A stretch of DNA of 28,385 nucleotides, taken from a virus. Positions 12,216 through 28,385 of this stretch are shown one piece after another. The position numbers and the translations under genes were made by a program. Under the pieces are notes generated by a model. That model did not search any database and was not told the DNA's origin. It saw nothing but the letters and a program-made list of their open reading frames with translations. Numbering within the stretch: the stretch's first letter is position 1; each line of letters begins with the position of its first letter. The stretch lies in IMG/VR virus record IMGVR_UViG_3300010885_014814, positions 1 to 28,385 of that record, one strand, 5' to 3'.

Positions 12216-12854
12216 TTAGAACTGCAAGATGATTTTTATATCTTCTTTCTGAGAAGTGGATCTAGTTATAGATGGTCTATTATCAACATAAATTATGTTG
12301 CCAGAATATTTTTTAACTTCTGGTTGTGCAACACCTTGATTAAAATTTTGACCAAGATAATATGTTCTACTATTTATTACAGTAGATATACCAGTAAATC
12401 CAGTATCAATTCCAAGATTTATCGTACCACCGTGAATGATTAAATTCCCACTAGTTGTTGGTGATGCGGTAAATCTATTTAAATTAAATCCATAAATTGG
12501 AGATGAATTTAATGAATTATCTGTATTGAATCCAACAACGGATCTATCTTGCCAATATTTTAATACCCCAGTATTTTGGTCATATGATATTACTCTACCA
12601 ACTGCAGTTGAACCAATTCCAATTGTTTGTGTGACAAATGTATCTGCAGTAAATATTGCTCCATTATATCCAGTTCCACTCAATTTAAGTGCATAAACAG
12701 CACTTGCTTTATCGGGAGTTAAATTTTCACTTGACCCATATGATTTTGGATTTTCAATTATACCAACTCTGGCTATTTGATTACCAATTATAAAATCTGG
12801 ATTTTCTGTATCATTTTCAATTCTTGAATATATTAGTACATTATATGCACCCAA
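12216..12854 (-). CDS. 8: gp8 baseplate wedge protein, C-terminal fragment
   Basis: This 212-codon frame is the C-terminal part of gp8, separated from the N-terminal part only by one in-frame TAA at 12855-12857. Its beginning (GAYNVLIYSRIEN, then GNQIARVGIIENPKSYG) lines up with the T4 gp8 segment RQISIITNPLEAKA. Its end (IIYVDNRPSITRSTSQKEDI, then KIILQF) lines up with the T4 C-terminus MIYMENRPPI...QTEEINILFTF. The middle contains marine-type insertions. The only start at the left border is the TTG directly after the TAA, with no well-placed Shine-Dalgarno, so independent initiation would be weak. It could be made by reinitiation or readthrough, or the TAA could be a sequence error. It ends 6 bases before the DUF4815 gene. 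Confidence 0.8.
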   Translation of the reverse strand: MGAYNVLIYSRIENDTENPDFIIGNQIARVGIIENPKSYGSSENLTPDKASAVYALKLSGTGYNGAIFTADTFVTQTIGIGSTAVGRVISYDQNTGVLKYWQDRSVVGFNTDNSLNSSPIYGFNLNRFTASPTTSGNLIIHGGTINLGIDTGFTGISTVINSRTYYLGQNFNQGVAQPEVKKYSGNIIYVDNRPSITRSTSQKEDIKIILQF

Positions 12855-12857
12855 TTA
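12855..12857 (-). other. in-frame TAA interrupting gp8
   Basis: On the minus strand the local reading is ...GGA TAT GAC ATT TAT CGT TAA TTG GGT GCA TAT AAT.... Codons on both sides stay in one frame and both sides match gp8, so one base substitution explains the interruption. A glutamine or glutamate codon (CAA or GAA) is the simplest ancestor. TAA also ends most intact genes here, so it is not reassigned throughout the genome. Confidence 0.85.
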
Positions 12858-13775
12858 ACGATAAATGTCATATCCATGCCCACCGTCTGGTGGAATTATT
12901 ACATCAAAAGATGGTTGTATGGACCCAGTTGGTACACCACCAGCGACCAAATCTAGAGTACCATAAGTGTATTGAGAACCACCATTAGAAACAACAACGG
13001 ATTCTATTTTTGAATCACCATTGATTACAACAGTTGCTTCCGCCCCATATCCATCACCTCTGATGGGGACTTTTGTGTATATTTTATTTGGTAAACCTAT
13101 TCCAATTCCTCTATTTGTTATTGTGATTATTTTTAATTGTCCACTAGATGTTGCATTATTTCTAATGGATACACTATCAATAGATGATTCCCAATTTTTT
13201 GGTACTGGAATATAATTGGTGGAATCAAATTTAATAACTTCACTTGGTTTAATTGTATAGAGATATTTCCAAATATACCCATCTCCACTTGTACCCGCCT
13301 CTCTTGGTTCTAAATCTGTAAATGTTGGCTCATCAAGAGATGGTCTTCCAGAAATATTATCAGGACTTATTCCATTATGTAGACAAATGTATACTCTATA
13401 GTCACTATTAAGAATATAATAATTGGCAGAATATAAATTTGTTGAGCCAGATGGGTTAGCTCCTTTATTTGGATCAACACTTATATCATGACGATACATA
13501 TCGTATGTTGTGCCAGAAGTCCACCTCAATTTTTTAATAACTTGACTAACATCATTGGAATTGATTTTCTTCAATCCAATCATTGTATCCCAATAATTGT
13601 TTTCTTCATCAAAATTATCTTTTGGTGAAGGTGGAGACACATCCCAGTCGGATTGGAAACTAGTGGCGTTTGGTAATCCAACAAAAGTATAGTATGAATT
13701 GTTAGTGGATGATACTCCAGAAACAAAGTTCTTGGCGTTTAGTATACGCAATTGGTCAGTTATAATAGCAGGCAT
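12855..13775 (-). CDS. 8: gp8 baseplate wedge protein, N-terminal fragment
   Basis: This 306-residue frame is the N-terminal part of a gp8-like baseplate wedge subunit. The T4-like features are YWDTMIGLKKI (61-71, compare MWTHMMGTVKV in T4), YRVYICLHNG (126-135, compare LVYRCLD) and GDGYIWKYLYTIKPSEVIKF (164-183, compare GDGYVWEYLFEIPPD). NYIPVPKNWE (187-196, compare EYIVVPWPEE) follows. Residues 210-290 hold the Gly-Tyr repeat type also seen in gp14 and gp7. Translation stops at TAA after PDGGHGYDIYR, but the same frame continues with LGAYNVLIYSR, which is plainly the rest of gp8. Read through, the protein would be about 519 residues (T4 gp8 is 334). The ATG is 19 bases after the gp7 stop, with a weak ribosome binding site. 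Confidence 0.85.
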   Translation of the reverse strand: MPAIITDQLRILNAKNFVSGVSSTNNSYYTFVGLPNATSFQSDWDVSPPSPKDNFDEENNYWDTMIGLKKINSNDVSQVIKKLRWTSGTTYDMYRHDISVDPNKGANPSGSTNLYSANYYILNSDYRVYICLHNGISPDNISGRPSLDEPTFTDLEPREAGTSGDGYIWKYLYTIKPSEVIKFDSTNYIPVPKNWESSIDSVSIRNNATSSGQLKIITITNRGIGIGLPNKIYTKVPIRGDGYGAEATVVINGDSKIESVVVSNGGSQYTYGTLDLVAGGVPTGSIQPSFDVIIPPDGGHGYDIYR

Positions 13776-13794: not shown

Positions 13795-16700
13795 TTAGGA
13801 TAGATAGTTTAGATATTTTAGTGGATTGATTCTAGTTACTACCGAAGAGGTAGTTAATCCAATAATTCCGTTTCTAGTGTACGCATTAAATTCTTGTGGT
13901 ATGGATCTATCCCCCAATACTATCTTACCCCAAGAAAATTCACCAAAATAGGAACTATATCCAGTTCCAGTCAATGAATTATAATTAGAAACACTAACAA
14001 TTACTCTAGATACATGAGTTATTCCAATTCCAGTAACACTTGTTTGAGCAATAGATACGTCAGCAACTTCATATACATTATCTAGATATTGTGTACTAAT
14101 ACCAAGAATTGATGAATTCTGATATAACGAAGTTACTCCATTTCCAATATTTGTATTAAATGTTGAGAAATAGTATCCAGTTTGTATTCCACTTATAGTT
14201 GTCACTCCAGTTATAACTGAATTTCTTAAATCCGAATTCATAGGAATATATAAATCAAATATTATTCCAGTAGAAGCTACACCAACAGAAGTAGTCTTAA
14301 CACCAACAATAATACCATAGTCCCCAGAATAGGATACATTTTTAATTTCTTCATATACTAATGATGGAGATTCAATCAATACAGATGGTGAATTTGTGGG
14401 GGTATATCCGATTCCTGGATTTATAATACTAATGCTAGTAACAATTCCGGATGTTATGGCTGATTGTGCAGATGCCATATAAGTGGAACCAATTCCTATG
14501 GGGTAACTAATCGTTACTGATGGAATAGATGCGTATCCACTACCACCATTTGATATATTAATTGAAGAAATTGTTCCGGCTATTGATACAATAGCTGTTG
14601 CTGCTGCACCAATTCTCTCGTCTTGTGATATTAATACAATTGATTTTTGTAATTGGTCTGTTGAATTCTCATTTAAACTATCAAATAGTGGTCTTGCATT
14701 TTGCACGAACATCACATCAGACCCAATACCAACTGATTGAATCATATAAGTCGTTGGATTAATTAATGGTTCATATTTTACTCTTGATTTTCCAACAACT
14801 TTTCCATTAATAATTTTATCTACTAGTTGTCTACACCAATTAATTGGTCTAACTATTAGTTCATCATTAGATAATCCTGGTCCCGGATATGGATTTGTTT
14901 GTATTAAATCTGTTGCATTTATTCTTGTTACTGCTCTTTCATCTTGAAGTAAAGAATTATTTTGACCAAGTTCTGGTGAATTTCTTAATTGTACATCGTC
15001 CCCAATTTTTATAGTTTCTAATATATCATTATAGATGACATCTATTTCTCCGCTACCCTTATAAAACAATAATTTAGATAAATCACCTGCTTTTGGTGAT
15101 TCATTAAATGTTATTGTGCTACCACCATCAAATAAATATGCATCTCCGGGAATTTGTAATACATTATTAATAAACACAAATAGTGTTGCTTGGATATCTA
15201 TATTTGATCCTTTTTTAGCACGAATAGTTATTGGCGATTCGTTTAGTGATATTCCAAATGTCTTAGCTGTACCATCAAATTGTGGATCTAATCTATCCAA
15301 TACTTGTAATTGCCCTATAGACCACGCGGAGAAACTAGTGTTATATGTTTTATCTATAAGTATCTGAAATTCTTCAAATGGTTTTGAAGAATCAGTAGGT
15401 ATACCAGACAATCCTCCAAAATTTACAGTAAGTATTTCATTTGGTTGATAACCATACCCAAAATTATTAATTGTTAGGTCAATTATACTAGAACCACTAC
15501 CAACAACAATATCAATATTTGCTTCAGTTCCTACACCAACTGAAGAAGATGTGCTATAAATTAGTGGGATATTGGAGTAACTAAATGGCGCATCAAAAAA
15601 TACAGTTGGTGGATTTGTGGTTGTGTATCCAGTTCCTGGATTTGTTATAGCAACACTAACAATGTGTCCATTACTAATTGCTGCTGTTCCTATAAATTGT
15701 ATAGTAGCCGCGATATCATCATCAGTTCTTACTCCAACATTTACGTGAGTTTGAATTCCCGCCCTATATCCAGCTCCACTATTACCAATACTTATTGATG
15801 ATATTGTACCCGCAATGGAAACAATCGCAGTTCCTCCAGCAGATACTAGTGGTTGATATCCAAATCCACTAGAAGATCCAACAGAAACTATAATTCCACC
15901 AACAGGAAGACTAGATGTATTGATATCATAACCAACAGATGAAGCTGCTCCTATGAATGATATTGTACTTATTCCAGAATTTTCTGAAATAGTATAATTT
16001 TCTAATGCACTCTGTACTCCTTGTGGTTGTTGAAATACCCCACCAACCAAAACTATTGCATTATCTGTTGAAAACCCAGTAACATTTTGTTGGCTAGATG
16101 TTAGAGTAAAATCACTATCCATCCCAGTAAATTCATTTGAAAAATCATCAAATACATAATTTTTAGAATATGTTTCACTTACGCCATTTACATCTCCAGA
16201 TCGTAGGAATACTCTTCCGTGGAAGGTATAACTAGTAGAAATTCCAATCCAATCTCTTTCATTTGGTGGATTTGTTGTTGAGCTTATTGGAGTTAGTCCA
16301 GTTGGTGCCTCAACAAAATTAATAATATTATTTACGATATTATAATTTCCTTGATACTTTCTAACCACTGAATTAGATGGATGTGATGAGATTCCCGTTC
16401 CCATCCAATGTCTATCAACAAGTAATACATTAGTACTACCGAATCCAACAGTTTGAATCTTCATCAATTCATCATCTATTTTTATTAAATCACCACCAAA
16501 GAATGAAGTTATTTGATTAATTTTTATTGTTGAGTCATATTCATTTGAATAATCTGCAAGTGTTGTGGTCATTGCGGTTGATACAATAGGTGATTGAATT
16601 ATATTGTTGAGTGATATTAGAGTTTTAGCATTTTGATTAGTTGCTGTAAATATGTGTACAGATCCAATTCCAACTGAAGTAATGTCTAAAGGCTTTGGAA

Positions 16701-19700
16701 TAAATTTAAGTGCATCCTCAGCGGATCCAGCTAATTTTATTTTCGTATCATCAATTTTTATAGCATATACATTTGTTGGTAATTTATCAATAATACCAAC
16801 TCCAACAAAGCTAGTTGATGCTATACCAATTGCCTGAGTATTTCCAATTCCAGAATTGTTATATGCTAATTTTTCTCCAGTTACATAATAATGATATGGA
16901 ATTAAAATTGTATCATCTATAGTGTTAATAATAGAAGAATCTGATCCATCTATTGTTCGTTCAAATATTTTATTCAATCTATGTGTTAAATCAAATTCTC
17001 TAAGAATTGTAGTTTCTGTACCATCATAATCACCATATCCACTTACGATATTGGAATTACCCAAATCAATAATATCTGTTGATGTACTTTCTCCATATAG
17101 AGATAGTGCTAATTGAAATACTCTAACCTCAATATTCACATTAGCAATTGGAGTAAACGTTAATTGAGTTACCCCAGAAGAAATAATGGCTCCAATAGTA
17201 CCAAGATTACTATTTGTTTCTAAATTCGCAAATTCTGAAAATGATACTGTAGTATCATCAATCAGGACAACTTCAGATAATTGATATTCATTATTTGTGG
17301 TATCTTCAACACTTATTAAATAATATGCTCCTCTATATGTTCCATTTTCATATTCTGCTATAACATTTTCAGTTGGAGAAACGGATGATGGAATAGAGGT
17401 GTAACTTGAGTTTAGTACCCCAGTGTTCATTGGTATAGTTCCAATTCCAGTTGCTAATGTATTTGCTATAGATACTCTTACCGTATTTGCAGTTAGTGCT
17501 ACCCCAGCACTAGGAATAAAATCAATATTAATATTTGATCCAGAATAATAGGTTGAATATGTTCCTAATCCACTACTAGAGTATGAATTTAGTGAGTGAT
17601 TGGTTAATTGTCCATATTCAAGAACATTTATATTTGTTCCATCGTGAACCAAATTTAATTCACTAAACTCATATATATTTCCACTTCCAGTAATTTCAAC
17701 CAATATTTTAGATGACCTATATGTTGATGCAATACCAACAATAGTAGTTGTTGTTCCTATAGAAATATTTGTATTTGTTGTCTGGATATCAATAATATCA
17801 CCTAATGATGTAGTTCCAATTCCAGCTGTTGTGTCTTTCAAGTCAAATGATATATAACTTAAATTATAATCATTAATACTATATTTTGTCGGGTAAAATA
17901 ATAATTGTCCATTAGAACCAGCTATACTAAAATCATATGAACCAAGATCGGTAAATGTCTCTACTCTACCATATTGATTCATATATCCAAAAGAACCATC
18001 GTGTAATAGAGAAACGATAAGAAACTGTCTTTCGTGTGTGTATCTATTATCTTGTATAAAAGTAAAATATTTTTTAGTTCTTGCTGATGTTATAACAAAT
18101 TCATCTACTACACTATATCTGGTGAGTCTTGGTTCACTATTAAATTGGGGACTAATATCATCTATAATAAGAACTCTATTTCCAATAGATTCAAAATAAT
18201 CTGTTAATATTCTATTTTCTAGAATAATCTCATTAGATATTGTTCTGGTGCCAATTTGTATTACTTTTTCTCTGGCGAGGTCAAAATCATATTCACAATT
18301 TAGGCTACCATCACCAACAATATCCACAACAATTTCAATATTACTACTATCTCTACTATTATTTTGATTATTACTAGATACACTCTCTATAACCAAATCA
18401 CTGAATTTTAAGAATCCAGCAGCGTGGTTTAGTGAATTTACTGCGTCATTCCAAGTATCAAATGGTACTTTTGATTTTAATGCATATGAGAAGTGTTGAT
18501 AATAATGATTATCTGGAAGTCTTTGTGTATTGTCGTTTAAGAATCCAGTATTTCTACTCCAGCCTTTTTTAACTATGGAGAATGAATTCAATAGAATTTC
18601 AGCATCAAATTTAATTTTTGATTTTACTATACCTTGAGTATTGGAGCTTTGGCCAATAACAAGATTACCAACATCAAATGTTTTATTTGTTGATACTTTA
18701 AGATAATCAATTTTATTATTCCAACTCTCAACTACTCCAGAGTTATTTTCATATTTTACAATTTCTCCAGAATAGAAATTATTCTTCTTTAATTCAATAT
18801 CAAATATTGGAAATTGTTTTTCTGGAATAGCTCTACCATTTGATTTTAATAATTGTATTATTCCTGGAGTTTCACCAGAAGTTAAGAAATTTTCTAAACT
18901 ATATGTTATATTTGATTTAGATCCACCTAGAGAAGTGGATACTCCAATTAATTCAAATAATTGATAATTATAATCTTCAGAATTATAACCAGTGCCAGTT
19001 GAATTTACACCGACATTAACATTTTCAATTAATATATTATCTCCAATCTCAAATGGGAAATCTTGTGGATTACTGAAATCTTCAGACAAATATAATGTAG
19101 TATGTTTTGTTGTATCATTATATGATATTGAGTGAATACCAACACCATTTTGATTGTTTATTGGTATAATTCTTGGAATTGTATTATAAATTCCATATGT
19201 ATTTTTCAGAATTTTTACTTCTGTTGCACCGAGAACGAATTGTAAATCAACATCGTCTATTATTTTGTTTGTGTATGCATCTATTACTATCAATCCAGGT
19301 GGAGAAATATAATTTTTACCACCAGAAGAAATTCCAATTTTAGAGAATGATGATAATGGGTCTACATTTAATATTTCTGGTAGATTAGCTACTGGACGTA
19401 ATGTAGAATCTGTAGGATAATTGAATCCAATATCTTGTATTTTATTATCTAATATTTTACCAATAATTTCTTCCTTTACCTTAAGAATTGCCCCAGAACC
19501 ATATTGAGAACTTACGCTACTGATTCCTGGGATGGTTTTATATTCAATTCCGCTATTAGTGATGTTAATTTTTGATATTGAACCTGTGGCCGTTTCGGAT
19601 GTAGTTTGATATGTTATTATTGCATTTGTATTATCATATGTTGTTGATTCTGGTGATTCAAAAATTGTAAAAGTAAATGTTGTTGTACCAATACCAGAAA

Positions 19701-22700
19701 TTGAATGGTTTCCGGTATAAACACTATTAATGACATTTATTTGATTGTGGTTTTTTACGTCTAAATCATTGACAATACCAAGTTTTGTATCTGTATTTAA
19801 ATCTATATTCGTTGGTGTGAATTTATAGTATAAAATATTTGGAATTTGGTCACTTAATTGAATTGAAACATTGGCAGTTGAATCTATTCCTATTTTACCA
19901 GATTTAATTACTTCAAATTTACTTGTCGTTTTAGATGAATATAATTTTGTATTAAATTCTGAATCAATATAAAAATCAAAATCAAATGCGGTATATTTGA
20001 TTGCTCCATTAACAAATGATAAAGTTGAATCAGATAAATCAAATTTTAAAGTATTATTTTTTCTAATATTTACTATTGGATTTATTTTTGAAATAGTTCC
20101 ACTTGATGCTGTTGTTATATTGATGGTTGTTGGATAATCACCATCAAGTTGTGATTTTTCAGATACTAATTTTATTCTATTATTATCATAAAATATAACA
20201 TAATATATCTTTTCGTTTTCAAGTCCACCCGAGGAAGAAGACGAAGTATGTATTACTTTATCTCCGGTTATGAGACCGTGATTTACTATCTGAATAGTAT
20301 TATTTGTGATGTCAACATCAGAAGCAATGAAGCTTTTAGAATCAAATATTATTCTCCGATTATAGTCATCATACTTAACAGATACTGTAGTTATATTAAA
20401 CGGTTTAATTTCCATATCAATGGAATCAAACACAGAAAGCCCGTGAGTGGCTGCTGTGGAGACCGTGACGTGGTTCTTATTAACTTGACCAACAACTACA
20501 TTGGGATTTGATGTTTTAAGACTATGATATACTCCAGTACCATTGTCGTGGAAATATAATATCCCAGCTGTTATGCCAATTCCAACATATGTTCCAGTAG
20601 TTCCTAATCCAACTTTTATTGTGGATATTCCTAAGAAATCTTTAGATATAGCGGTAGCATATACTATATCACCCAAATAAAATGTTGATATTCCAGTATT
20701 GGAGACTAATAATGAATTACCACCATTATTTGAATATAGAAGTTCTTCTCCAGTTTTAATATTATGATTTGGTAAATATATTGATTGTGTGGGAACAAAT
20801 ATATTTGTTGGTCCAACCCCAGGATTAGTAAAGGTAATTGTTATTCCAATACCAATTCCAGAAGTTGTTCCTACTCCAACAGATTCAGATGGGTCAAAAT
20901 AAATTTCTTTATTTATTGGGAAATTTCTGGTTGTATTATACCCAACATTAAATCTAAATTTTCTTGGATTTTCATATAAAATAGTATATGATGAATGCGC
21001 CAATCCTATGGTGGAATTCTGTTCTCTTACTACTCTAATTCTAGATGTTTTTTGGTCAATATTGAGAACTTTCACATCCTCATCTTCAATTTGTAATATA
21101 TCATTTTCACGAATAAATGGATATTCCAATGCACCAGAAATATAAAAATATGTAACTATTCCTGTTACTGGAGTACTACCAATTCCTAGGGACAATACAA
21201 AATTATCATTGCGAATTCCTAGTTTATAATTTCCATTTAATTTTGATACAGATGTACTTAATCCAGATATTGAGATTAAATCAAAATTACTTAATTCGTG
21301 TGGAGATGAGGAAAAACCAATAAATTGATTAGATGTGGTATCTGGAGTTAATTCAATATTGAATATAGATGTTGATGCTGTACTTACTTGAGAAACAGTT
21401 TTCCCTAATATTTTAGATACTTTAGCTGCGGCACCAGTTCCACCGGTAGTAGAATTATCAAAGATGATACGATCATTTATAACATAGTTAGTTCCACCAG
21501 TTATTATACCAATATTTTGAATACCATCTGTGGATGTTGCTATGATATCAATATATTGTTTATCTGAATTAATTATATAATTATATCCACTACTATCATT
21601 GTTGATATTATATGGTGTAGTATTTCTAAACCAGGATGTATTTTGTAAATTTGTATCTATTTGATTGGAAGTTTTTTTAAAATTAAACTCATTTGGTTTG
21701 GATTTATATGTATTTCCAACCACATATGGATATACTGGTCTTCTATAATGATTAAATGTTCCTCCACTATCGTTGGAATTTGGGTTTATTGTATTGAAAT
21801 ATGCATATGTCCCATTTGGAAATTCTGGAGTTAAACAAAATCTCCCATTATGTTCATCTAGGTCTCCAGTTCCTTTAAATTCGTAATCATTAATAAAAAA
21901 TCCTTGTGGAAATGCGGAAACACTAGGCCGATTATCTTTATTTACTAATTCATATCCAGATTTCATTAATCTAGTGAACCCACCAGAATTGGAAGTATAT
22001 CCATATGGTCCATAAATTGGATTTCCATCATATGCCCATCCAATAATTGGTGAATGTTTGAAGGAATTTAGAGGGATATTTTCCTCATTATTTTCGACTT
22101 TTAAGTCTGGAACACCATATAAAGTTACATTATCTTGATTTTTTACGTAAATATTTTTTCTTAATATTCTTGGTGGATATAGGTGAAAATATTGTAATTC
22201 ATCCGCATTTACAGATGATTTTTCAATAATACCATCATCATTTTCAATAATATTTAAATTTTTATGAAATAAATCTACATTCCACGTCTGTATTTGTGTA
22301 TTAACATTACATCCGACACCAGCAGAAACCACTTTAATTTCAGTATCATTACCGAAACCAATTCCACCATTAACAACATTAATGGATATTAATTTCCCAT
22401 TTTGAATAATTGGAGTTAATTTATGATAATTTCCGGATCCGGTGACTATAATATTTGGTGGAGAGTTATAATTTGAACCGGAGTTTCTAATAAGAATTTC
22501 GGAAATTTTTCCATTATTGATAATTGGAGTAATTTCAGCATCACTACCACTAATAAATGATATTTCGGGATTGCGAACATAATTTAAAATTTCTGATGAC
22601 CCATAACCAACGCCAAAATTTGTAACATCAATAGAATCTATTCCACCTCTAAAGATTGGTTGTATTTTAGCAGAAAAGTCCTGTCCAGTTCTGGTAGAAA

Positions 22701-25695
22701 CACCAATTGCTCCAGATATATTAACAATTATATTTGGATAATTGAAATAATGTGTTCCAGAACCAAAGGAGGTTATATCAATCGGTTCATTAATAGTTGT
22801 ATTATATAATGAGAATGTATCATTATCAATTTTATTGACATAATACTGTGTAGTAGTAGATAATCCACCAATAACACTTCCAGTTGATGAATATACTACA
22901 GTTTCTCCAGTATTATATCCGTGATTTTTTATAGTAAATTTATCTGATGATGTATTAATTCCTACAGATTGCGCTATTCTTTTTTTATTCTGATAATTTT
23001 CACCAGAATTAGTAACTACGATATTAGATATTATTTGCTTCTTATTTGTTGCTTTTATATTATGTATTCCAGAGCCATATGTTTGTAGGCTTACTGTATT
23101 AATGCCAGTAATTGAATCTGATTTAGTATTATGTAAAGTAATTCTAAATGAATCAATTATATAAACATAATAATTCGCATCTGTTGTTAGTCCAGATATT
23201 CCATTTTGATTATCAGTTTGATATACTACACTCTCATTGTCTCTAAATTTATGATAAGTGGAGAATCCGATAGTGTTTGTAACTAAATTAACACTTGTAT
23301 ATGTTGATTCTGCATTAAAAGGTACAATATGATCTATTTTAGTCATATTTACTTCTGCCTTTGCACCAATACCATTTCCGCCAGTAATGGTAATAATTGG
23401 AGTATGTGTATAATCAAAACCAGAATCAATAATATTAATTCTTTTCAATTGACCAATTACAGCACAGGTTCCAGTTGCCCCAGTACCAATTGGATCTGAA
23501 ATATTGATTAGTGGTGGATTAATTACATCATAATCATATCCAGGTGATGTGATTTGAATATCATCTATTCCACCATAAGATACAAAATCCGTAGATTTAT
23601 AATTAAGTATCTCCACACCATTAATTAAAATCCCAACAGGTCCCGGAACAGTATTAAAAGTGCCACTAAGAGTATTTGGTGGAAGAATTTCTCTTACTAT
23701 ATTTTGGGCATTTACTGTTCTATTATGAAAATCAAAGTATGTTATTTCATCATTTTCTATTTTTCCAGAGACAGTTATAAATTCTTTTATTAAAAGATTA
23801 TATTTACTTGTTGCTAATTTAATTGTTGTTGCATCTACTCTGTATATGAAGTATAATCCACTTAATAAATTAGAAGAATTATAAATCTTTTGATTATAGT
23901 ATATTGAATCTCCAGTATAAAAACCATGGTCTTTGGATGTACTTAATGTAATTAATTGATTATCATAATCTCCAGATAATATAATGAATTTGGAGTATGC
24001 ATTTAATGGTTGATCTGGATAATTTGGTAATGATGAAGATGTAATTAGAACATCATTAGTAAATTTTACATATGAATTCTGAATATTGGCATTGTATTTC
24101 TCTAAATTAGAATATATTGATTTTACTTTTAGTATGTTTCTCTCTATTACATAATATACAGTTAAATTTAATGGCGATGCAGTTTTTATAGTGAAAGACT
24201 TATTTGTTATTATAGATTCTACGATACCATTTATTGTAGATGCATCACTACCAGTTAATGTTACACTATCTCCAATACGAAATAAAATATTATCATATGT
24301 TATTAAATTATATTTTAATTCAGATAAATCAGATACACTAAATGTTCTGACATTATAATATACCTTAGTATTATAAATTAGACTATTTGTTATTACATCG
24401 TCTGCTAATTTACCCAATGAACGAATTCGTATAGTATCGTTCTTAGAATATAGATATGTATCCTGATATGTTTTTAACTTCTCAAGAACTGAATTGATTC
24501 TTATTGTTATTAAACTTGTTGAATTGTCCTCATATCCATAAGCAAATACATTTAATCTAATCTCTTCAGTATCAAAAATTGTACTGGTAATTCCATCAAC
24601 ATTATAAAATTGATTTATTGATTTATCGGTGTAAGTTAAAATTTGTCCATCTAATGTAATTAATTCACCGGAATTTGGAAATCCAATAGTTGAATCTACA
24701 TCTAAAGTAGTGAAACCACTAAAAGCGGAGTTTAATAATTTTGTTTTGGGGTGTACTGAAAAATCGGATAATATACTTCCACTAACATTAATATCCTTAT
24801 TATAATCATAATCTAAACTTAATTTATAATAAGTTTTTCCTTCTGTATAAATTTTTTCTACATTTGTTACTGAACCTCTAGCGGATGGTATATTATAATT
24901 TTCATTGACATCTTGAAATATAGTTTTATTAATAAGATTTAATGGATTTCCACTTATTTCCTCAACTACAATATCTTTTGTTATTCTATATTCCGCATCT
25001 GATGGTCTGAAGAGATTATCTTTTGGTTTTATAATTTCTACTTCTTCACCATATAATGCTTTAAATAAAATCTTAAATGAATTATCTGTTCCTTTAGAAT
25101 TATAGAAATCTTTTGATTGGGTAATGAATAATTGTTGATTTAGATTATTATATAATGGTCTGTCATCAAAACCAGGAATAAGTTGTTTTTTTATTTTCTT
25201 TAGAAATTCCTTAAGAAATAGAATAGATAAATTGTATATTAATGTTCCTGAGGTATGGTCAGACGCAACTGAACTAGTGAAAACTAACTCATCTGGTGTA
25301 TTGGGACCATAGAGAGAAGTTACTCCACTGAATCCTCTTACACATTCGTTTAATGTTAATCCAGTTTTACTGACATATGTAATTATCTCATCATCAATTC
25401 TTAATAATCCATAGTTTTGTGGTAATGAATTAACAAAGTTTGTGTCTGATAATGTAATTGAAGTTTCAAACGAATCTAAATCATTCAATAATACACTAGA
25501 TTCTACAACTTCATTTATTGTTTCTAGTTTTAGATATTTGTCTATATTTTGAATAAGATCCGCCGCACTCCCTTGAAATTCCTGGGAAACGTAGTATTGT
25601 TTTAAAAATTCAACAACCAGTGGAAATTCTTCTCTTACAAATATTGGAAGTTGATTCTCTACAATATTTTGTATTTTTACTCTATTTTCAATCAT
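13795..25695 (-). CDS. 7: giant gp7-like baseplate wedge protein with YHYH domain
   Basis: This 3966-residue protein occupies the gp7 position between gp6 and gp8. The key homology is near the N-terminus: SKDFYNSKGTDNSFKILFKA (194-213), continuing LYGEEVEI (214-221), matches T4 gp7 YDFYSTKGIEASYKFLFKVLYNEEVEIE. A helical head precedes it (REEFPLVVEFLKQYY, 21-35), interrupted at about 80-160 by an IDDEIITYV...CVRG module. Beyond about 260 come many beta-rich repeats: NHG-x-x-TG-E/D units followed by YYV...D, and Gly-Tyr units ending in a Pro-beta strand. A YHYH-like domain lies at about 1215-1300 (IIGWAYDGNPIYGPYGY ... GDLDEHNGRFCLTPEFPNGT). T4 gp7 has about 1030 residues. It probably forms the wedge scaffold plus a large peripheral extension. 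A GATAGGA sequence lies just before the ATG, which is 2 bases after the gp6 C-terminal stop. Confidence 0.85.
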   Translation of the reverse strand: MIENRVKIQNIVENQLPIFVREEFPLVVEFLKQYYVSQEFQGSAADLIQNIDKYLKLETINEVVESSVLLNDLDSFETSITLSDTNFVNSLPQNYGLLRIDDEIITYVSKTGLTLNECVRGFSGVTSLYGPNTPDELVFTSSVASDHTSGTLIYNLSILFLKEFLKKIKKQLIPGFDDRPLYNNLNQQLFITQSKDFYNSKGTDNSFKILFKALYGEEVEIIKPKDNLFRPSDAEYRITKDIVVEEISGNPLNLINKTIFQDVNENYNIPSARGSVTNVEKIYTEGKTYYKLSLDYDYNKDINVSGSILSDFSVHPKTKLLNSAFSGFTTLDVDSTIGFPNSGELITLDGQILTYTDKSINQFYNVDGITSTIFDTEEIRLNVFAYGYEDNSTSLITIRINSVLEKLKTYQDTYLYSKNDTIRIRSLGKLADDVITNSLIYNTKVYYNVRTFSVSDLSELKYNLITYDNILFRIGDSVTLTGSDASTINGIVESIITNKSFTIKTASPLNLTVYYVIERNILKVKSIYSNLEKYNANIQNSYVKFTNDVLITSSSLPNYPDQPLNAYSKFIILSGDYDNQLITLSTSKDHGFYTGDSIYYNQKIYNSSNLLSGLYFIYRVDATTIKLATSKYNLLIKEFITVSGKIENDEITYFDFHNRTVNAQNIVREILPPNTLSGTFNTVPGPVGILINGVEILNYKSTDFVSYGGIDDIQITSPGYDYDVINPPLINISDPIGTGATGTCAVIGQLKRINIIDSGFDYTHTPIITITGGNGIGAKAEVNMTKIDHIVPFNAESTYTSVNLVTNTIGFSTYHKFRDNESVVYQTDNQNGISGLTTDANYYVYIIDSFRITLHNTKSDSITGINTVSLQTYGSGIHNIKATNKKQIISNIVVTNSGENYQNKKRIAQSVGINTSSDKFTIKNHGYNTGETVVYSSTGSVIGGLSTTTQYYVNKIDNDTFSLYNTTINEPIDITSFGSGTHYFNYPNIIVNISGAIGVSTRTGQDFSAKIQPIFRGGIDSIDVTNFGVGYGSSEILNYVRNPEISFISGSDAEITPIINNGKISEILIRNSGSNYNSPPNIIVTGSGNYHKLTPIIQNGKLISINVVNGGIGFGNDTEIKVVSAGVGCNVNTQIQTWNVDLFHKNLNIIENDDGIIEKSSVNADELQYFHLYPPRILRKNIYVKNQDNVTLYGVPDLKVENNEENIPLNSFKHSPIIGWAYDGNPIYGPYGYTSNSGGFTRLMKSGYELVNKDNRPSVSAFPQGFFINDYEFKGTGDLDEHNGRFCLTPEFPNGTYAYFNTINPNSNDSGGTFNHYRRPVYPYVVGNTYKSKPNEFNFKKTSNQIDTNLQNTSWFRNTTPYNINNDSSGYNYIINSDKQYIDIIATSTDGIQNIGIITGGTNYVINDRIIFDNSTTGGTGAAAKVSKILGKTVSQVSTASTSIFNIELTPDTTSNQFIGFSSSPHELSNFDLISISGLSTSVSKLNGNYKLGIRNDNFVLSLGIGSTPVTGIVTYFYISGALEYPFIRENDILQIEDEDVKVLNIDQKTSRIRVVREQNSTIGLAHSSYTILYENPRKFRFNVGYNTTRNFPINKEIYFDPSESVGVGTTSGIGIGITITFTNPGVGPTNIFVPTQSIYLPNHNIKTGEELLYSNNGGNSLLVSNTGISTFYLGDIVYATAISKDFLGISTIKVGLGTTGTYVGIGITAGILYFHDNGTGVYHSLKTSNPNVVVGQVNKNHVTVSTAATHGLSVFDSIDMEIKPFNITTVSVKYDDYNRRIIFDSKSFIASDVDITNNTIQIVNHGLITGDKVIHTSSSSSGGLENEKIYYVIFYDNNRIKLVSEKSQLDGDYPTTINITTASSGTISKINPIVNIRKNNTLKFDLSDSTLSFVNGAIKYTAFDFDFYIDSEFNTKLYSSKTTSKFEVIKSGKIGIDSTANVSIQLSDQIPNILYYKFTPTNIDLNTDTKLGIVNDLDVKNHNQINVINSVYTGNHSISGIGTTTFTFTIFESPESTTYDNTNAIITYQTTSETATGSISKINITNSGIEYKTIPGISSVSSQYGSGAILKVKEEIIGKILDNKIQDIGFNYPTDSTLRPVANLPEILNVDPLSSFSKIGISSGGKNYISPPGLIVIDAYTNKIIDDVDLQFVLGATEVKILKNTYGIYNTIPRIIPINNQNGVGIHSISYNDTTKHTTLYLSEDFSNPQDFPFEIGDNILIENVNVGVNSTGTGYNSEDYNYQLFELIGVSTSLGGSKSNITYSLENFLTSGETPGIIQLLKSNGRAIPEKQFPIFDIELKKNNFYSGEIVKYENNSGVVESWNNKIDYLKVSTNKTFDVGNLVIGQSSNTQGIVKSKIKFDAEILLNSFSIVKKGWSRNTGFLNDNTQRLPDNHYYQHFSYALKSKVPFDTWNDAVNSLNHAAGFLKFSDLVIESVSSNNQNNSRDSSNIEIVVDIVGDGSLNCEYDFDLAREKVIQIGTRTISNEIILENRILTDYFESIGNRVLIIDDISPQFNSEPRLTRYSVVDEFVITSARTKKYFTFIQDNRYTHERQFLIVSLLHDGSFGYMNQYGRVETFTDLGSYDFSIAGSNGQLLFYPTKYSINDYNLSYISFDLKDTTAGIGTTSLGDIIDIQTTNTNISIGTTTTIVGIASTYRSSKILVEITGSGNIYEFSELNLVHDGTNINVLEYGQLTNHSLNSYSSSGLGTYSTYYSGSNINIDFIPSAGVALTANTVRVSIANTLATGIGTIPMNTGVLNSSYTSIPSSVSPTENVIAEYENGTYRGAYYLISVEDTTNNEYQLSEVVLIDDTTVSFSEFANLETNSNLGTIGAIISSGVTQLTFTPIANVNIEVRVFQLALSLYGESTSTDIIDLGNSNIVSGYGDYDGTETTILREFDLTHRLNKIFERTIDGSDSSIINTIDDTILIPYHYYVTGEKLAYNNSGIGNTQAIGIASTSFVGVGIIDKLPTNVYAIKIDDTKIKLAGSAEDALKFIPKPLDITSVGIGSVHIFTATNQNAKTLISLNNIIQSPIVSTAMTTTLADYSNEYDSTIKINQITSFFGGDLIKIDDELMKIQTVGFGSTNVLLVDRHWMGTGISSHPSNSVVRKYQGNYNIVNNIINFVEAPTGLTPISSTTNPPNERDWIGISTSYTFHGRVFLRSGDVNGVSETYSKNYVFDDFSNEFTGMDSDFTLTSSQQNVTGFSTDNAIVLVGGVFQQPQGVQSALENYTISENSGISTISFIGAASSVGYDINTSSLPVGGIIVSVGSSSGFGYQPLVSAGGTAIVSIAGTISSISIGNSGAGYRAGIQTHVNVGVRTDDDIAATIQFIGTAAISNGHIVSVAITNPGTGYTTTNPPTVFFDAPFSYSNIPLIYSTSSSVGVGTEANIDIVVGSGSSIIDLTINNFGYGYQPNEILTVNFGGLSGIPTDSSKPFEEFQILIDKTYNTSFSAWSIGQLQVLDRLDPQFDGTAKTFGISLNESPITIRAKKGSNIDIQATLFVFINNVLQIPGDAYLFDGGSTITFNESPKAGDLSKLLFYKGSGEIDVIYNDILETIKIGDDVQLRNSPELGQNNSLLQDERAVTRINATDLIQTNPYPGPGLSNDELIVRPINWCRQLVDKIINGKVVGKSRVKYEPLINPTTYMIQSVGIGSDVMFVQNARPLFDSLNENSTDQLQKSIVLISQDERIGAAATAIVSIAGTISSINISNGGSGYASIPSVTISYPIGIGSTYMASAQSAITSGIVTSISIINPGIGYTPTNSPSVLIESPSLVYEEIKNVSYSGDYGIIVGVKTTSVGVASTGIIFDLYIPMNSDLRNSVITGVTTISGIQTGYYFSTFNTNIGNGVTSLYQNSSILGISTQYLDNVYEVADVSIAQTSVTGIGITHVSRVIVSVSNYNSLTGTGYSSYFGEFSWGKIVLGDRSIPQEFNAYTRNGIIGLTTSSVVTRINPLKYLNYLS
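21796..22053 (-). other. YHYH-like domain within gp7
   Basis: Residues about 1215-1300 of gp7 read IIGWAYDGNPIYGPYGY, later NDYEFKGTGDLDEHNGRF and then TPEFPNGTYAYF. This is the DG-x-PIYGP-x-G ... LDE-x-NGR ... TPE-P-GTYAY pattern of YHYH domains known from secreted proteins and phage virion proteins. Function is unclear; metal or carbohydrate binding has been suspected for the family. The literal YHYH motif itself is not preserved here. Confidence 0.75.
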
Positions 25696-25697
25696 TC

Positions 25698-26204
25698 CTA
25701 TCTCACCAATACTCCGTTAGAATAGCTAGATGATACCGTATAAGATGTTCCGGAAATATCTTCACCTGATGATATACGATCTGAAATCATATTCACATCA
25801 ATATTATTCATATCTAATTGTAAATATAAATCCTGTAATCCAATTACATCATTAGATTGTGGTGTTGCGGATATTTCAATAATTGGTACACCACTATTTA
25901 CCACGGTAGAAATAATGTTTATTGGGTTCAATATCACTTCTCCTTTGGTATAATCAATAATTCCGATAGAATTACGAACTACTATTGGTTGAGTTTCGGA
26001 GTTTAATTTAAATAGAAATAGTTTTCCTGTTTTTTTATTTGTGTTTGGAATATCTGATAGATACACAACATCCGATACTCCACTGATTGTAAATCCAGAG
26101 GATTTTATATTATATCCACTCATATCTTTAATATGAAATTCATTGCCGAAACAAATTTCATAACTAGCAAATGTATTAGTTAATACACTTAAATCTCTTC
26201 TCAT
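25698..26204 (-). CDS. 6: gp6 baseplate wedge protein, C-terminal fragment
   Basis: This is the 168-residue portion of the gp6 C-terminus downstream of an in-frame TAA, counted from its first ATG. The homologous frame actually extends 34 codons further upstream to 26306 (TELNTFGSRFKYSKFIKLID, then DSDIAITSNITKIN), which is the gp6-type segment expected after the upstream fragment. The sequence then runs MRRDLSVLTNTFASYEICFG with NEFHI and ends SYSNGVLVR. Without readthrough this fragment would have to start at 26204, where no Shine-Dalgarno is visible, and would lose those 34 residues. Together with the upstream fragment it gives about 635 residues, close to T4 gp6 (660). The stop is TAG, 2 bases before the gp7 ATG. 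Confidence 0.78.
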   Translation of the reverse strand: MRRDLSVLTNTFASYEICFGNEFHIKDMSGYNIKSSGFTISGVSDVVYLSDIPNTNKKTGKLFLFKLNSETQPIVVRNSIGIIDYTKGEVILNPINIISTVVNSGVPIIEISATPQSNDVIGLQDLYLQLDMNNIDVNMISDRISSGEDISGTSYTVSSSYSNGVLVR

Positions 26205-26306
26205 ATTAATTTTAGTAATATTAGAAGTTATCGCAATATCACTATCATCTATAAGTTTAATGAATTTACTATATTTGAATCTGGATCCAAATGTATTTAA
26301 TTCTGT

Positions 26307-26309
26307 TTA
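26307..26309 (-). other. in-frame TAA interrupting gp6
   Basis: On the minus strand the reading is ...AAA TAT TCA AGA TAA ACA GAA TTA AAT ACA TTT GGA.... The frame stays open for 34 codons to the ATG at 26204 and on to the TAG at 25698, and both halves look like one gp6. A single substitution is sufficient. As in gp8, the stop follows an arginine codon. Confidence 0.85.
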
Positions 26310-27605
26310 TCTTGAATATTTTTCTATATTTGATAATGTGGATGTTTTTAATTTATTTGTAGATGAAGTTAGATTATTATTATAATAAACGCTTGAATTG
26401 ATTTCTAGATATAGATATTTTAAATCTGTAATTACTGGAACTATTCCGGCAACAGAATATTTTTTAAGATTCCTCTTTATGTTGTCTTTAATCGAATTGG
26501 AGAGGAATACTCCATTATGTGGCTTGATACTAATAAAGATTTTACCATATTGTGGAGGAATTAAATCTTCTCCACCAAATGCCGCAACAGATTCCGCTTC
26601 TGGATAAATTATAGGAATAATTGCCTCATAATCATTAGTAGTAACTGCTCTATTGCGAGAAGCAAATATCTGAGAAGAATATTTACGAATAGAATCAATT
26701 CCCTCAATACTACTTCCACCATATGAACTTTGATGTGTAGTTATTAGTGACATTCCACTAGTAATAGCAACATCATTATTATCTACTAATCTACCATTAA
26801 ATGAAAATGAGGATATTGAATTAGCATTGCTTCCATTGCTTATGGGATAAGAAACTGTAATATAATTACCTTCTTGTGGTTTCGTACCAAATACATTATC
26901 TCCAAATATTATTTCATATTTTTCGTCTGGAATCTCTTGAACAAAAAATATAGTAGAACTTGAGTTAACATCAAATAAACTATCAGCCTGGTTATATTTT
27001 ACTGATACAGATGAATATAAGTTGGCTCTAATGGATACAGAAATTAAAGAGGTATCTATTCCTATGTTTTCTAAAATAAATCGTTGATTTGGATTATTAG
27101 AACTCACAGTAAAATTTGTGGTTATGAATGTTCCTTCGTATATGTCTATATTATTAAAATATGCCAATCCATCACTATTAACTGATGCTGTGATATCAGA
27201 TGGAATAATAAATGTAAAGCTTTGATTACCAAATGTGCTAGCAGTAGTTGCCACTATACCAGCTTTTAATGTTATTGTTACTGGTTTAGTAACAAATTCT
27301 GTGGTGTCAACAAAAAAACTTATATTTGATCTAGCTGCTCTTCTGGATTGTGGAACATATCCAATATTCTTAGCAAGTGAAACTACATTCTCTCTGAGTG
27401 TTGCACTATCAATAAACACCTCATTAGCCACCATATTGGCATTATAAGATGTAATGTACGTATTATATGCCAAAGTATCAATAATTACTGATAGATTAGA
27501 TCCTGCAAAATCATAGTCAGTAAAATTTGAATTCGATCTAAGATAATCTTTTATCGAAATTTTTATTTGGTCGTAGTCTAAATTGGTGAAGTTTACGAGT
27601 GACAT
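26307..27605 (-). CDS. 6: gp6 baseplate wedge protein, N-terminal fragment
   Basis: This 432-residue frame matches the N-terminal two thirds of T4-like gp6, the wedge subunit that forms the inner baseplate ring. Family blocks are NFTNLDYDQIKISIKDYLRS (6-25), FTDYDFAGSNLSVIIDTLAY (28-47), NEVFIDSATLRENVVSLAKN (65-84), then IGYVPQSRRAA (85-95). Later blocks are YEIIFGDNVFGTKP, IRKYSSQIFASRNRAVTTND and YEAIIPIIYPEAESVAAFGG followed by PPQYGKIFISIKP. It starts directly after the gp25 TAA (no gap), consistent with coupled translation. It terminates early at an in-frame TAA after LSNIEKYSR, while the C-terminal domain continues in the same frame. In T4 gp6 the C-terminal region mediates contacts within the gp6 ring, so this fragment alone is unlikely to be fully functional. 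Confidence 0.88.
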   Translation of the reverse strand: MSLVNFTNLDYDQIKISIKDYLRSNSNFTDYDFAGSNLSVIIDTLAYNTYITSYNANMVANEVFIDSATLRENVVSLAKNIGYVPQSRRAARSNISFFVDTTEFVTKPVTITLKAGIVATTASTFGNQSFTFIIPSDITASVNSDGLAYFNNIDIYEGTFITTNFTVSSNNPNQRFILENIGIDTSLISVSIRANLYSSVSVKYNQADSLFDVNSSSTIFFVQEIPDEKYEIIFGDNVFGTKPQEGNYITVSYPISNGSNANSISSFSFNGRLVDNNDVAITSGMSLITTHQSSYGGSSIEGIDSIRKYSSQIFASRNRAVTTNDYEAIIPIIYPEAESVAAFGGEDLIPPQYGKIFISIKPHNGVFLSNSIKDNIKRNLKKYSVAGIVPVITDLKYLYLEINSSVYYNNNLTSSTNKLKTSTLSNIEKYSR

Positions 27606-28007
27606 TTAACGTGTTGATTGCAGTGCGAATGATAACTGCTGAGGCAATACATCAATACCGATGATATTATATTGGATATAAACATCAAACGTATATTCAT
27701 CATAATTAGGACTTACTTCAACTTTAATTAACTTAACACTTGGTTCATAATTATTAATAACATTTTCTATTTCATCTTTAAGAACAGAAGACGAAATATC
27801 GTCAATATTTTCAAATAATGATTGGGAGATTTTAGACCCAAGATTGCTATTAAAGAATCTTTCTCCAGTAATAGTATAAACTAAATTACGAATAGAACGG
27901 GAAATAGCGGCTTCGTTTTTTAGATCTACTAAGTCGTAATTAAGGGGATTAACCTGGAACGACATACTAATATCCTTAAAGCTTTTACTTACCCGTTCTA
28001 TAGGCAT
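27606..28007 (-). CDS. 25: baseplate wedge subunit gp25-like
   Basis: This 133-residue protein is a typical gp25, the conserved wedge component related to the TssE protein of type VI secretion; it sits in the wedge core with gp6 and gp53 and meets the tail sheath. The family blocks are ISRSIRNLVYTITGERFFNS (35-54), NLGSKISQSLFENID (55-69), IENVINNYEPSVKLIKVEVS (80-99) and YDEYTFDVYIQYNI (102-115). T4 gp25 has 132 residues. It is the first recognised wedge gene in this operon and has a TATAAATA late-promoter motif 24 bases upstream of the ATG. No strong Shine-Dalgarno is visible (GAATAA precedes the ATG). Its TAA abuts the gp6 ATG. Confidence 0.93.
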   Translation of the reverse strand: MPIERVSKSFKDISMSFQVNPLNYDLVDLKNEAAISRSIRNLVYTITGERFFNSNLGSKISQSLFENIDDISSSVLKDEIENVINNYEPSVKLIKVEVSPNYDEYTFDVYIQYNIIGIDVLPQQLSFALQSTR

Positions 28008-28030
28008 TTATTCAACGATTCAGCTATCTT

Positions 28031-28038
28031 TATTTATA
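28031..28038 (-). promoter_or_regulatory. T4-type late promoter motif before gp25
   Basis: The minus strand reads TATAAATA, the perfect T4 late promoter -10 motif recognised by the gp55 sigma factor. It lies one base after the stop of the 70-residue gene and 24 bases before the gp25 ATG, leaving a leader of about 15-20 bases. In AT-rich DNA such 8-mers arise by chance, but the intergenic placement ahead of a late operon is supportive. Confidence 0.7.
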
Positions 28039-28039
28039 C

Positions 28040-28252
28040 TCAATCTATAATGGTTCTTGGCTCAATACCATAATCCCAATCATTATATGATTCGGATTCA
28101 GTAATTTCTGAATCTTCGGTAACTATATTTTTATCAATTAGGTCATCATAAGTAATTTCTCTAATTAGATTCTTATTATAGTCAGTGACTAGAGATGTGG
28201 TTCCCCACATTTCCTTCATATATTCTACGTTGCGATCTACTATTTTAGCCAT
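28040..28252 (-). CDS. small hypothetical acidic protein (70 aa)
   Basis: This 70-residue protein precedes gp25. It is acidic, especially in its second half (DEITESES-like run, then YNDWDYGIEPRTIID), and has no membrane segment or motif I recognise. Translation looks strong: AGGAGA lies about 7-8 bases before the ATG at 28252, the best ribosome binding site in the window. It has its own upstream TATAAATA and a leader hairpin. The stop is TGA. It is probably co-transcribed with the baseplate operon, but I cannot assign a function. Confidence 0.7.
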   Translation of the reverse strand: MAKIVDRNVEYMKEMWGTTSLVTDYNKNLIREITYDDLIDKNIVTEDSEITESESYNDWDYGIEPRTIID

Positions 28253-28260
28253 AAGAAGTC

Positions 28261-28267
28261 TCCTAAG
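28261..28267 (-). promoter_or_regulatory. strong ribosome binding site of the 70-aa gene
   Basis: The minus strand reads TAACTTAGGAGACTTCTT ATG. AGGAG at optimal spacing stands out, because most other starts in the window have weak or no Shine-Dalgarno sequences. Confidence 0.65.
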
Positions 28268-28282
28268 TTAATATTAGAACTT

Positions 28283-28310
28283 TTATGTGTCGGGGTTCTA
28301 TCCCGCATAA
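28283..28310 (-). promoter_or_regulatory. 5'-leader hairpin downstream of late promoter
   Basis: Complementary arms TTATG (28283-28287) with CATAA (28306-28310), and CGGG (28291-28294) with CCCG (28302-28305), form a stem with a 3-base bulge (28288-28290) and a 7-base loop. It is the most GC-rich spot nearby. It lies where a transcript from the TATAAATA at 28313-28320 would begin, so it could cap and stabilise the mRNA 5' end. There is no T-run typical of a terminator. Confidence 0.5.
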
Positions 28311-28312
28311 GA

Positions 28313-28320
28313 TATTTATA
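28313..28320 (-). promoter_or_regulatory. T4-type late promoter motif at the head of the operon
   Basis: The minus strand reads TATAAATA within GAATTATAAATATC. It overlaps the last copy of the tandem repeat array and lies 60 bases upstream of the 70-residue gene. Expected initiation is about 6-7 bases downstream, near 28306. It is probably the main late promoter for the cluster as far as the window shows. Confidence 0.7.
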
Positions 28321-28385
28321 ATTCTCAAGACCCTATAAGAATCTCAAGACCATATAATTCTCAAGACCATATAATTCTCAAGACC
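28317..28385. repeat. short tandem repeat array, four units
   Basis: Two identical 17-base units ATATAATTCTCAAGACC (28352-28368 and 28369-28385) follow two diverged ones (28317-28332 and 28333-28351), all ending TCTCAAGACC. The array runs to the window edge, so its full length is unknown. The diverged copy nearest the gene contributes the TATAA of the late promoter. Confidence 0.85.

Follow-up and report, generated by a model that had tools for sequence, protein, structure and literature searches.

The tandem repeat array at the edge of this viral DNA is best explained as a minisatellite private to one phage lineage and without a conserved role, and the late promoter that adjoins it as a real one, whose transcript would start at or near a conserved RNA element capable of forming a pseudoknot. 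We put the probability of this reading at about 65%. Of the two, the array is unremarkable and the RNA leader is the discovery. The DNA analysed is a 28,385-bp virus fragment (IMGVR_UViG_3300010885_014814), referred to here in its entirety as the window. Replication slippage or recombination probably built up the array within the short gap that precedes the late promoter of the gp25 baseplate operon, and the array would have broken the assembly of both contigs that carry it. The leader, conserved at what would be the first bases of a late message, is a small target that is present in cultured phages, and it might control production of the phage tail baseplate.

What kind of phage does the window come from? 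It is a late structural region of a T4-type phage, and the fragment is cyanophage-like. Ten minus-strand ORFs, other than the two giant ones at 4656-12209 and 13795-25695, were scanned with PHROGs, and eight of the ten were also run against Pfam. Nine of the ten have a family match: gp25 (27606-28007), gp6 (two pieces, 25698-27605), gp8 (two pieces, 12216-13775), a head-tail adaptor, a head closure (neck) protein, a tail sheath stabiliser and one family of unknown function. In a protein search gp25 matches 2,198 phage records, all at less than 60% identity, the best being S-B05 at 59.4%. By DNA comparison, nine Synechococcus or marine records match the window at 60-80%. ARAGORN found no tRNA in the window, a tRNA remnant having been rejected. 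The genes nearest to the array are as follows.

27606 to 28007, minus strand: gp25, baseplate wedge protein (PF04965, E 2e-11; phrog_261, E 1.1e-47)
28040 to 28252, minus strand: small gene, an ORF of 70 amino acids, function unknown, the first gene after the leader
28260 to 28264, minus strand: Shine-Dalgarno-like AGGAG of the small gene, from reading the sequence

The window's copy of the small-gene protein has no match in Pfam or PHROGs. A relative of the gene is encoded in 109 of 111 viral-contig stretches found by pattern, of which the best 80 of 109 were retained. The protein family is kept ahead of gp25, and many members have the motifs YMKEMWGTT and DYDDWEYGTEP. Two other genes of the window are interrupted. 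An in-frame TAA at 26307-26309 (minus strand) breaks gp6 into 432 and then 168 amino acids in one frame, and gp8 is divided by an in-frame TAA at 12855-12857 (minus strand) into 306 and 212 amino acids that match consecutive parts of phrog_438. Since gp6 is uninterrupted, at 635 amino acids, in a second contig, L015 (IMGVR_UViG_3300009160_001135, 7,983 bp), its TAA reflects either variation between strains or an error in the sequence. The two interruptions raised the idea of a changed genetic code, which was rejected: both stops are TAA, with which other genes of the window also terminate, and L015 has gp6 intact.

Two copies of the late promoter box lie close to these genes.

28313 to 28320, minus strand: T4-type late promoter box TATAAATA, from its sequence and the position of TAAATA in relatives
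28031 to 28038, minus strand: second TATAAATA box, immediately upstream of gp25, from its sequence

A T4-type late promoter has a TATAAATA-like box shortly upstream of a late gene, and this is the arrangement found here. By itself the box is not enriched in the window (3 copies, 10.75 expected), so support for the one at 28313-28320 is positional and comes from the placement of TAAATA in relatives. Among 61 distinct contexts collected through the small gene or gp25, the window included, 32 have TAAATA within 40 nt of the RNA element, and in 32 of these 32 the nearest copy is 4-7 nt from the 5-bp stem; the set keeps rows with little upstream sequence (L131, L171 and L152, 26 nt). A larger set gives the same picture, with TAAATA within 24 nt in 88 of 175 contexts and the nearest copy at 3-7 nt in 88 of 88. 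Two of 177 contexts, with less than 24 nt, were left out of this set, and in two of the 88 with a box there is another at a greater distance (9 and 18 nt). Contexts obtained by DNA pattern only have the box in 55 of 110 cases. All of these are counts of related sequences rather than of independent events; the background is 45 TAAATA in 30,036 positions. Two kinds of case run counter to this spacing: the 87 of 175 contexts without a box, and three of six cultured phages. In these phages the box-to-stem distance is 5 nt in S-SKS1, 4 in B23, 7 in ACG-2014f and 13 in DSL-LC03, the last standing outside the 88 of 175, and S-SRM01 and S-SCSM2R have no box. The gap in the window is 6 nt, which would place the transcript start near 28306. 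The preliminary description of this DNA had proposed a late promoter with a start near this point, and position argues for it, since the conserved RNA element begins with base 28306. Sigma-70 promoters were considered and rejected: a search of 27900-28385 gave three sites, two of them overlapping the array on the minus strand, compared with 2.5 in shuffles.

By box and place, the promoter fits the T4 late type. T4 late promoters have the same box upstream of virion genes, as in the window, and late starts in T4 have been mapped downstream of such a box at gene e, as described in PMC3014915. Many of the relatives depart from the T4 form in having GT, CT or AA before TAAATA.

The leader that would follow this promoter has four recognisable parts.

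28276 to 28306, minus strand: conserved RNA element at the presumed 5' end of the transcript, from the relatives' alignment and covariation
28302 to 28305 paired with 28291 to 28294, minus strand: leader stem, from covariation
28295 to 28301, minus strand: leader loop AUAGAAC, from conservation
28276 to 28280, minus strand: GUUCU, which can pair with AGAAC of the loop, from complementarity

On the minus strand, between the box and the small gene, the element reads GCGGGAUAGAACCCCG-ACACAU-AAAAGUUCU. Relatives keep its plan: four to five stem pairs enclose the loop AUAG(N)AAC, and a linker with A's at its end leads to GUUCU. The four inner pairs of the stem are all present in 82 of 91 distinct cores and the fifth in 46, and any of C, A, G and T may stand at loop base N across the 91. 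Covariation was computed on 89 cores, after exclusion of those of L306 and L387, which have no gp25 context and one stem pair. In the stem, the share of paired cells is 93.3%, compared with 84.4% in shuffles and no more than 61.3% when slid. The cells changed on both sides number 99, where shuffles have 33.5, and covariation scores 0.260, where shuffles have 0.082 and sliding gives no more than 0.102. Any of these three values is attained by 0 of 500 shuffles, with the warning from the covariation tool that related sequences can beat shuffles without structure. Two further measures are not above shuffles: there are 3 pairs with changes on both sides, a value as high in 496 of 500, and 12 further pair types, as high in 209 of 500. 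Among the stem columns, two are changed on both sides, in 47 and 42 sequences, and the outermost pair is open in 44 of 89. In alignment A1 the row for the window is off by one column in the stem, which counts against structure.

The hairpin loop would pair with the downstream GUUCU. This second helix pairs in 98.6% of cells, and because it hardly varies, covariation is no proof of it. Three cores, and also B23, have GUUUCU, and their loops still fit by eye. The window's leader (28250-28310) folds better than shuffles, with a z of -2.28 and 3 of 200 shuffles as good. Together, the stem hairpin and the loop-GUUCU helix can form an H-type pseudoknot, a structure that the transcript may adopt in the cell. 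Rfam 15 has no match at the gathering score in the window or in 10 relatives' loci, and none up to E 10 in the window's 28200-28385.

The element is closely tied to the baseplate genes. In a pattern scan that took no account of context, gp25 follows the element in 113 of 120 cases among the matches listed, and the small gene is recognised in 91 of 120 among the matches listed. Four listed matches have neither gene: L319 and L383 are close to the end of a contig, ahead of an ORF that by eye is similar to the small gene, and L306 and L387 appear to be due to chance. The element occurs in the cultured phages ACG-2014f, S-SRM01, S-SKS1, S-SCSM2R, DSL-LC03 and B23, and it did not turn up, by pattern or in the stretch inspected, in Bellamy, S-B05, SynMITS9220M01 or S-RIM2. 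The pattern search found none in 7 of 110 small-gene loci (L105, L106, L110, L121, L122, L123 and L142, the last with merely 23 nt upstream). Several copies per genome were considered and rejected: with a strict pattern, 4 of 12 records had one match each and the other 8 had none; the strict pattern misses the variant loop of L097, and L098, L099 and L103, three of the 8, carry it by their upstream sequence. Most matches in genome contigs are probably due to chance, because the four-pair stem is present in 15 of 119 parsed matches among those listed, compared with 111 of 120 viral ones. A cellular origin of the leader was rejected on the same count. Two genome contigs, L476 and L501, combine the full stem with a TAAATA box and are possibly of phage origin. 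Searches of open-licence PMC papers brought up nothing recognised as this element in cyanophages.

What might the leader do? At close to even odds, it is no switch but a 5'-terminal structure that guards the late mRNA from decay, or a plain protein operator. The distance from box to stem would set the stem at about the first bases of the transcript, as such a structure would require, although 87 of 175 contexts have no TAAATA upstream, and for that reason the element is perhaps not terminal there. A second difficulty for a guarding structure or plain operator is a competing hairpin that reaches the Shine-Dalgarno sequence.

28262 to 28278, minus strand: candidate competing hairpin of UCUAA (28274-28278) and UUAGG (28262-28266), which extends to the Shine-Dalgarno sequence; weak, five pairs

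A stem of at least six pairs from the GUUCU region to the Shine-Dalgarno sequence is possible in 93 of 123 distinct leaders, compared with 14.6% of shuffles, and in many leaders it runs from UCU to AGG of AGGAG. In pairing calculations that ignore pseudoknot energies, mean predicted pairing of this AGG across the 123 leaders is 0.82, and it drops to 0.28 under a constraint that keeps GUUCU unpaired, the condition that the pseudoknot would impose. Mutually exclusive pairing of GUUCU in most relatives suggests the layout of a translational switch. A tentative proposal, with somewhat less than an even chance of being right, is that the leader is a new RNA family of T4-type cyanophages with a 5'-terminal pseudoknot. 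GUUCU would pair either with the loop, leaving the ribosome site open, or toward the Shine-Dalgarno sequence, closing it, and a metabolite or phage protein would time translation of the small gene and possibly of the baseplate operon. The window itself favours a guarding structure or plain operator, its Shine-Dalgarno sequence being predicted to pair with or without GUUCU held. Its stem has five pairs (row L044, same sequence), and predicted AGG pairing goes from 0.51 when free to ~0.9 with GUUCU held, because another hairpin forms. Since the switch prediction fails in the window, this phage may have lost the switch or have a different one, or the element may instead shield the 5' end of the message.

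Several known RNAs invite comparison. In T4, as described in PMC3014915, RNA structures act on translation of genes 25 and 38, and there is a pseudoknot at gene 32. The leader resembles the gene 32 operator by analogy only: that operator is likewise a pseudoknot before the ribosome site in a phage mRNA leader (PMC3014915), but it belongs to another gene and has another sequence, no protein is known to bind the window's leader, and the gene that follows the element is overwhelmingly gp25, as counted above. The split ribosome site of T4 gene 25 is likewise an RNA structure that acts on initiation at the gp25 locus. However, it lies between the Shine-Dalgarno sequence and AUG of gene 25 itself according to PMC3014915, whereas the window's element is 5' of the Shine-Dalgarno sequence of the small gene that precedes gp25. 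More distant T4-related phages are described in the same source as lacking the gene 25 split site. Finally, manA, wcaG and PhotoRC-II are structured RNAs of T4-like cyanophages and marine metagenomes, often in possible 5' UTRs; unlike the window's element, they are reported in PMC2864571 with metabolic or photosynthesis genes.

Upstream of the promoter lies the array.

28317 to 28385, no strand assigned: tandem array of four units (16, 19, 17 and 17 bp), truncated by the end of the record; from TRF, unit counts and L015

That four tandem units lie beside the promoter box and partly contribute to it, as the preliminary description had it, is confirmed. TRF reports an array at 28317-28385 with a period of 17, 3.9 copies, 87% matches and a score of 106. 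The plus-strand units are TATAATTCTCAAGACC (16), CTATAAGAATCTCAAGACC (19), ATATAATTCTCAAGACC (17) and ATATAATTCTCAAGACC again. Every unit terminates in TCTCAAGACC, which has four exact copies in the window, each inside the array; when one mismatch is allowed the number of matches rises to 7, which 0 of 100 shuffles attain (shuffle mean 0.99). The first unit and the minus-strand TATAAATA share 28317-28320 (TATA). Turnover of the repeats had been suggested as a way to move or multiply the promoter, but only the unit that touches 28313 yields TATAAATA, and the others read TATATGGT or TATAGGGT on the minus strand. On the plus strand, those other units have by eye TATAATTC or TATAAGAA, with 6 of the 8 letters of the late box, which may be chance in so AT-rich a unit. 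Nor does the unit recur before other late genes in the record: GGTCTTGAGAATTATA with up to two mismatches has three copies in the 28,385 bp, all in the array.

Like minisatellites, or VNTRs, the array consists of head-to-tail units, of 17-19 bp, with few variants. Its units are within the ~10-60 bp range of such repeats. A VNTR would also differ in copy number between individuals, and here the two contigs that can be compared agree over four units, at which the window ends. Because these two contigs are all that carry the array, we infer its slippage origin rather than observe it. L015 is 99.92% identical to the window over 7,890 bp, with six differences. It has the window's four units in identical order, the two contigs agreeing up to the window's end, and then five extra 19-mer units, the last of which has 17 of 19 bases; this contig likewise terminates within the array. 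The window's final base closes a unit, and the next letter could be A (17-mer) or C (19-mer), so a k-mer graph would be expected to fork there. Two unit types can follow at the edge, which is therefore best read as an assembly break and not as a genome join, the two options that had been offered for it. The neighbourhood is internal in S-SRM01 and B23, records marked circular and free of the array in the stretch read, and no terminal repeat or circular join was found for the window, whose own genome is incomplete. The array would account for the halting of two assemblies at one place, and it counsels caution about biology read from contig edges.

How widespread is the array? In the collections searched, only the records of the window and L015 carry it. 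Two adjacent units were found in L015 alone in the viral collection (the window's own record being excluded by the tool) and in no genome contig. A 16-mer of the unit is common to 40 viral stretches, and it is tandem only in L015. Among 72 distinct regions up to 240 nt upstream of the small gene, which include the window copy (L001) and L015, the strongest other TRF score is 53 (L126), compared with 106 for the window and 256 for L015. BLAST of the L015 array against phages returned 6 records, the best at E 0.5. A recent function in this one lineage is conceivable.

An unlikely alternative is that the units are binding sites for a phage or host regulator, whose target would be the late promoter or a divergent gene on the far side of the array. 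The array abuts the promoter, its units are nearly identical, and it probably lies in a divergent promoter region, because 11 of 69 upstream regions of relatives have a divergent next gene with an opposite-strand TAAATA at 64-79 nt from the small-gene start. These 11 include L045-L048 and L050 (51-52% by the small gene) and L125 (74% by gp25), and an opposite-strand TAAATA lies within 160 nt in 13 of 69; a divergent gene would be expected beyond the array. However, the spacings of 17 and 19 bp are mixed, which would put the units on different helix faces, no other relative examined has the array, and we know of no need for an upstream operator in this type of late promoter. Much less probable still is an iteron cluster of a replication origin: units of this size are found in tandem at iteron origins, and T4 oriE is said to contain iterons, but there is no unit elsewhere in the record and no array at this place in other relatives. 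Hardly credible is an assembly artefact, since, although both contigs terminate inside the array, two contigs that are separate assemblies by their record names, and have six differences outside the array, share the four units in the same order.

Some minor observations concern the surroundings of the array and other repeats. Upstream of the small gene, L125 and L393 (B23) have divergent genes with the similar N-termini MKTFKEFI and MKTYREFI and their own opposite-strand TAAATA box, and a gene of this type is a candidate for what follows the array. L074 (TRF score 175) and L079 (61) have arrays of ~20-bp units, different from those of the window, about 500-640 nt upstream of the small gene; the genome part upstream of this gene may thus gain repeats now and then. 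A looser tandem search gave 56 stretches, of which nine were inspected besides L015. Five of these have two separated copies, and L232, L242, L246 and L254 have other short-period arrays. In L232 (4127-4185) and L242 (26-84), both viral contigs, these are 10-bp tandem arrays of GGTCTTGAGT, with nine letters in common with the window's unit, letters that the search pattern itself required. In L246 (6-104) and L254 (16-114), 18-bp units with CTCAAGACC stand at the very start of both contigs, where assembly has again stopped at a repeat.
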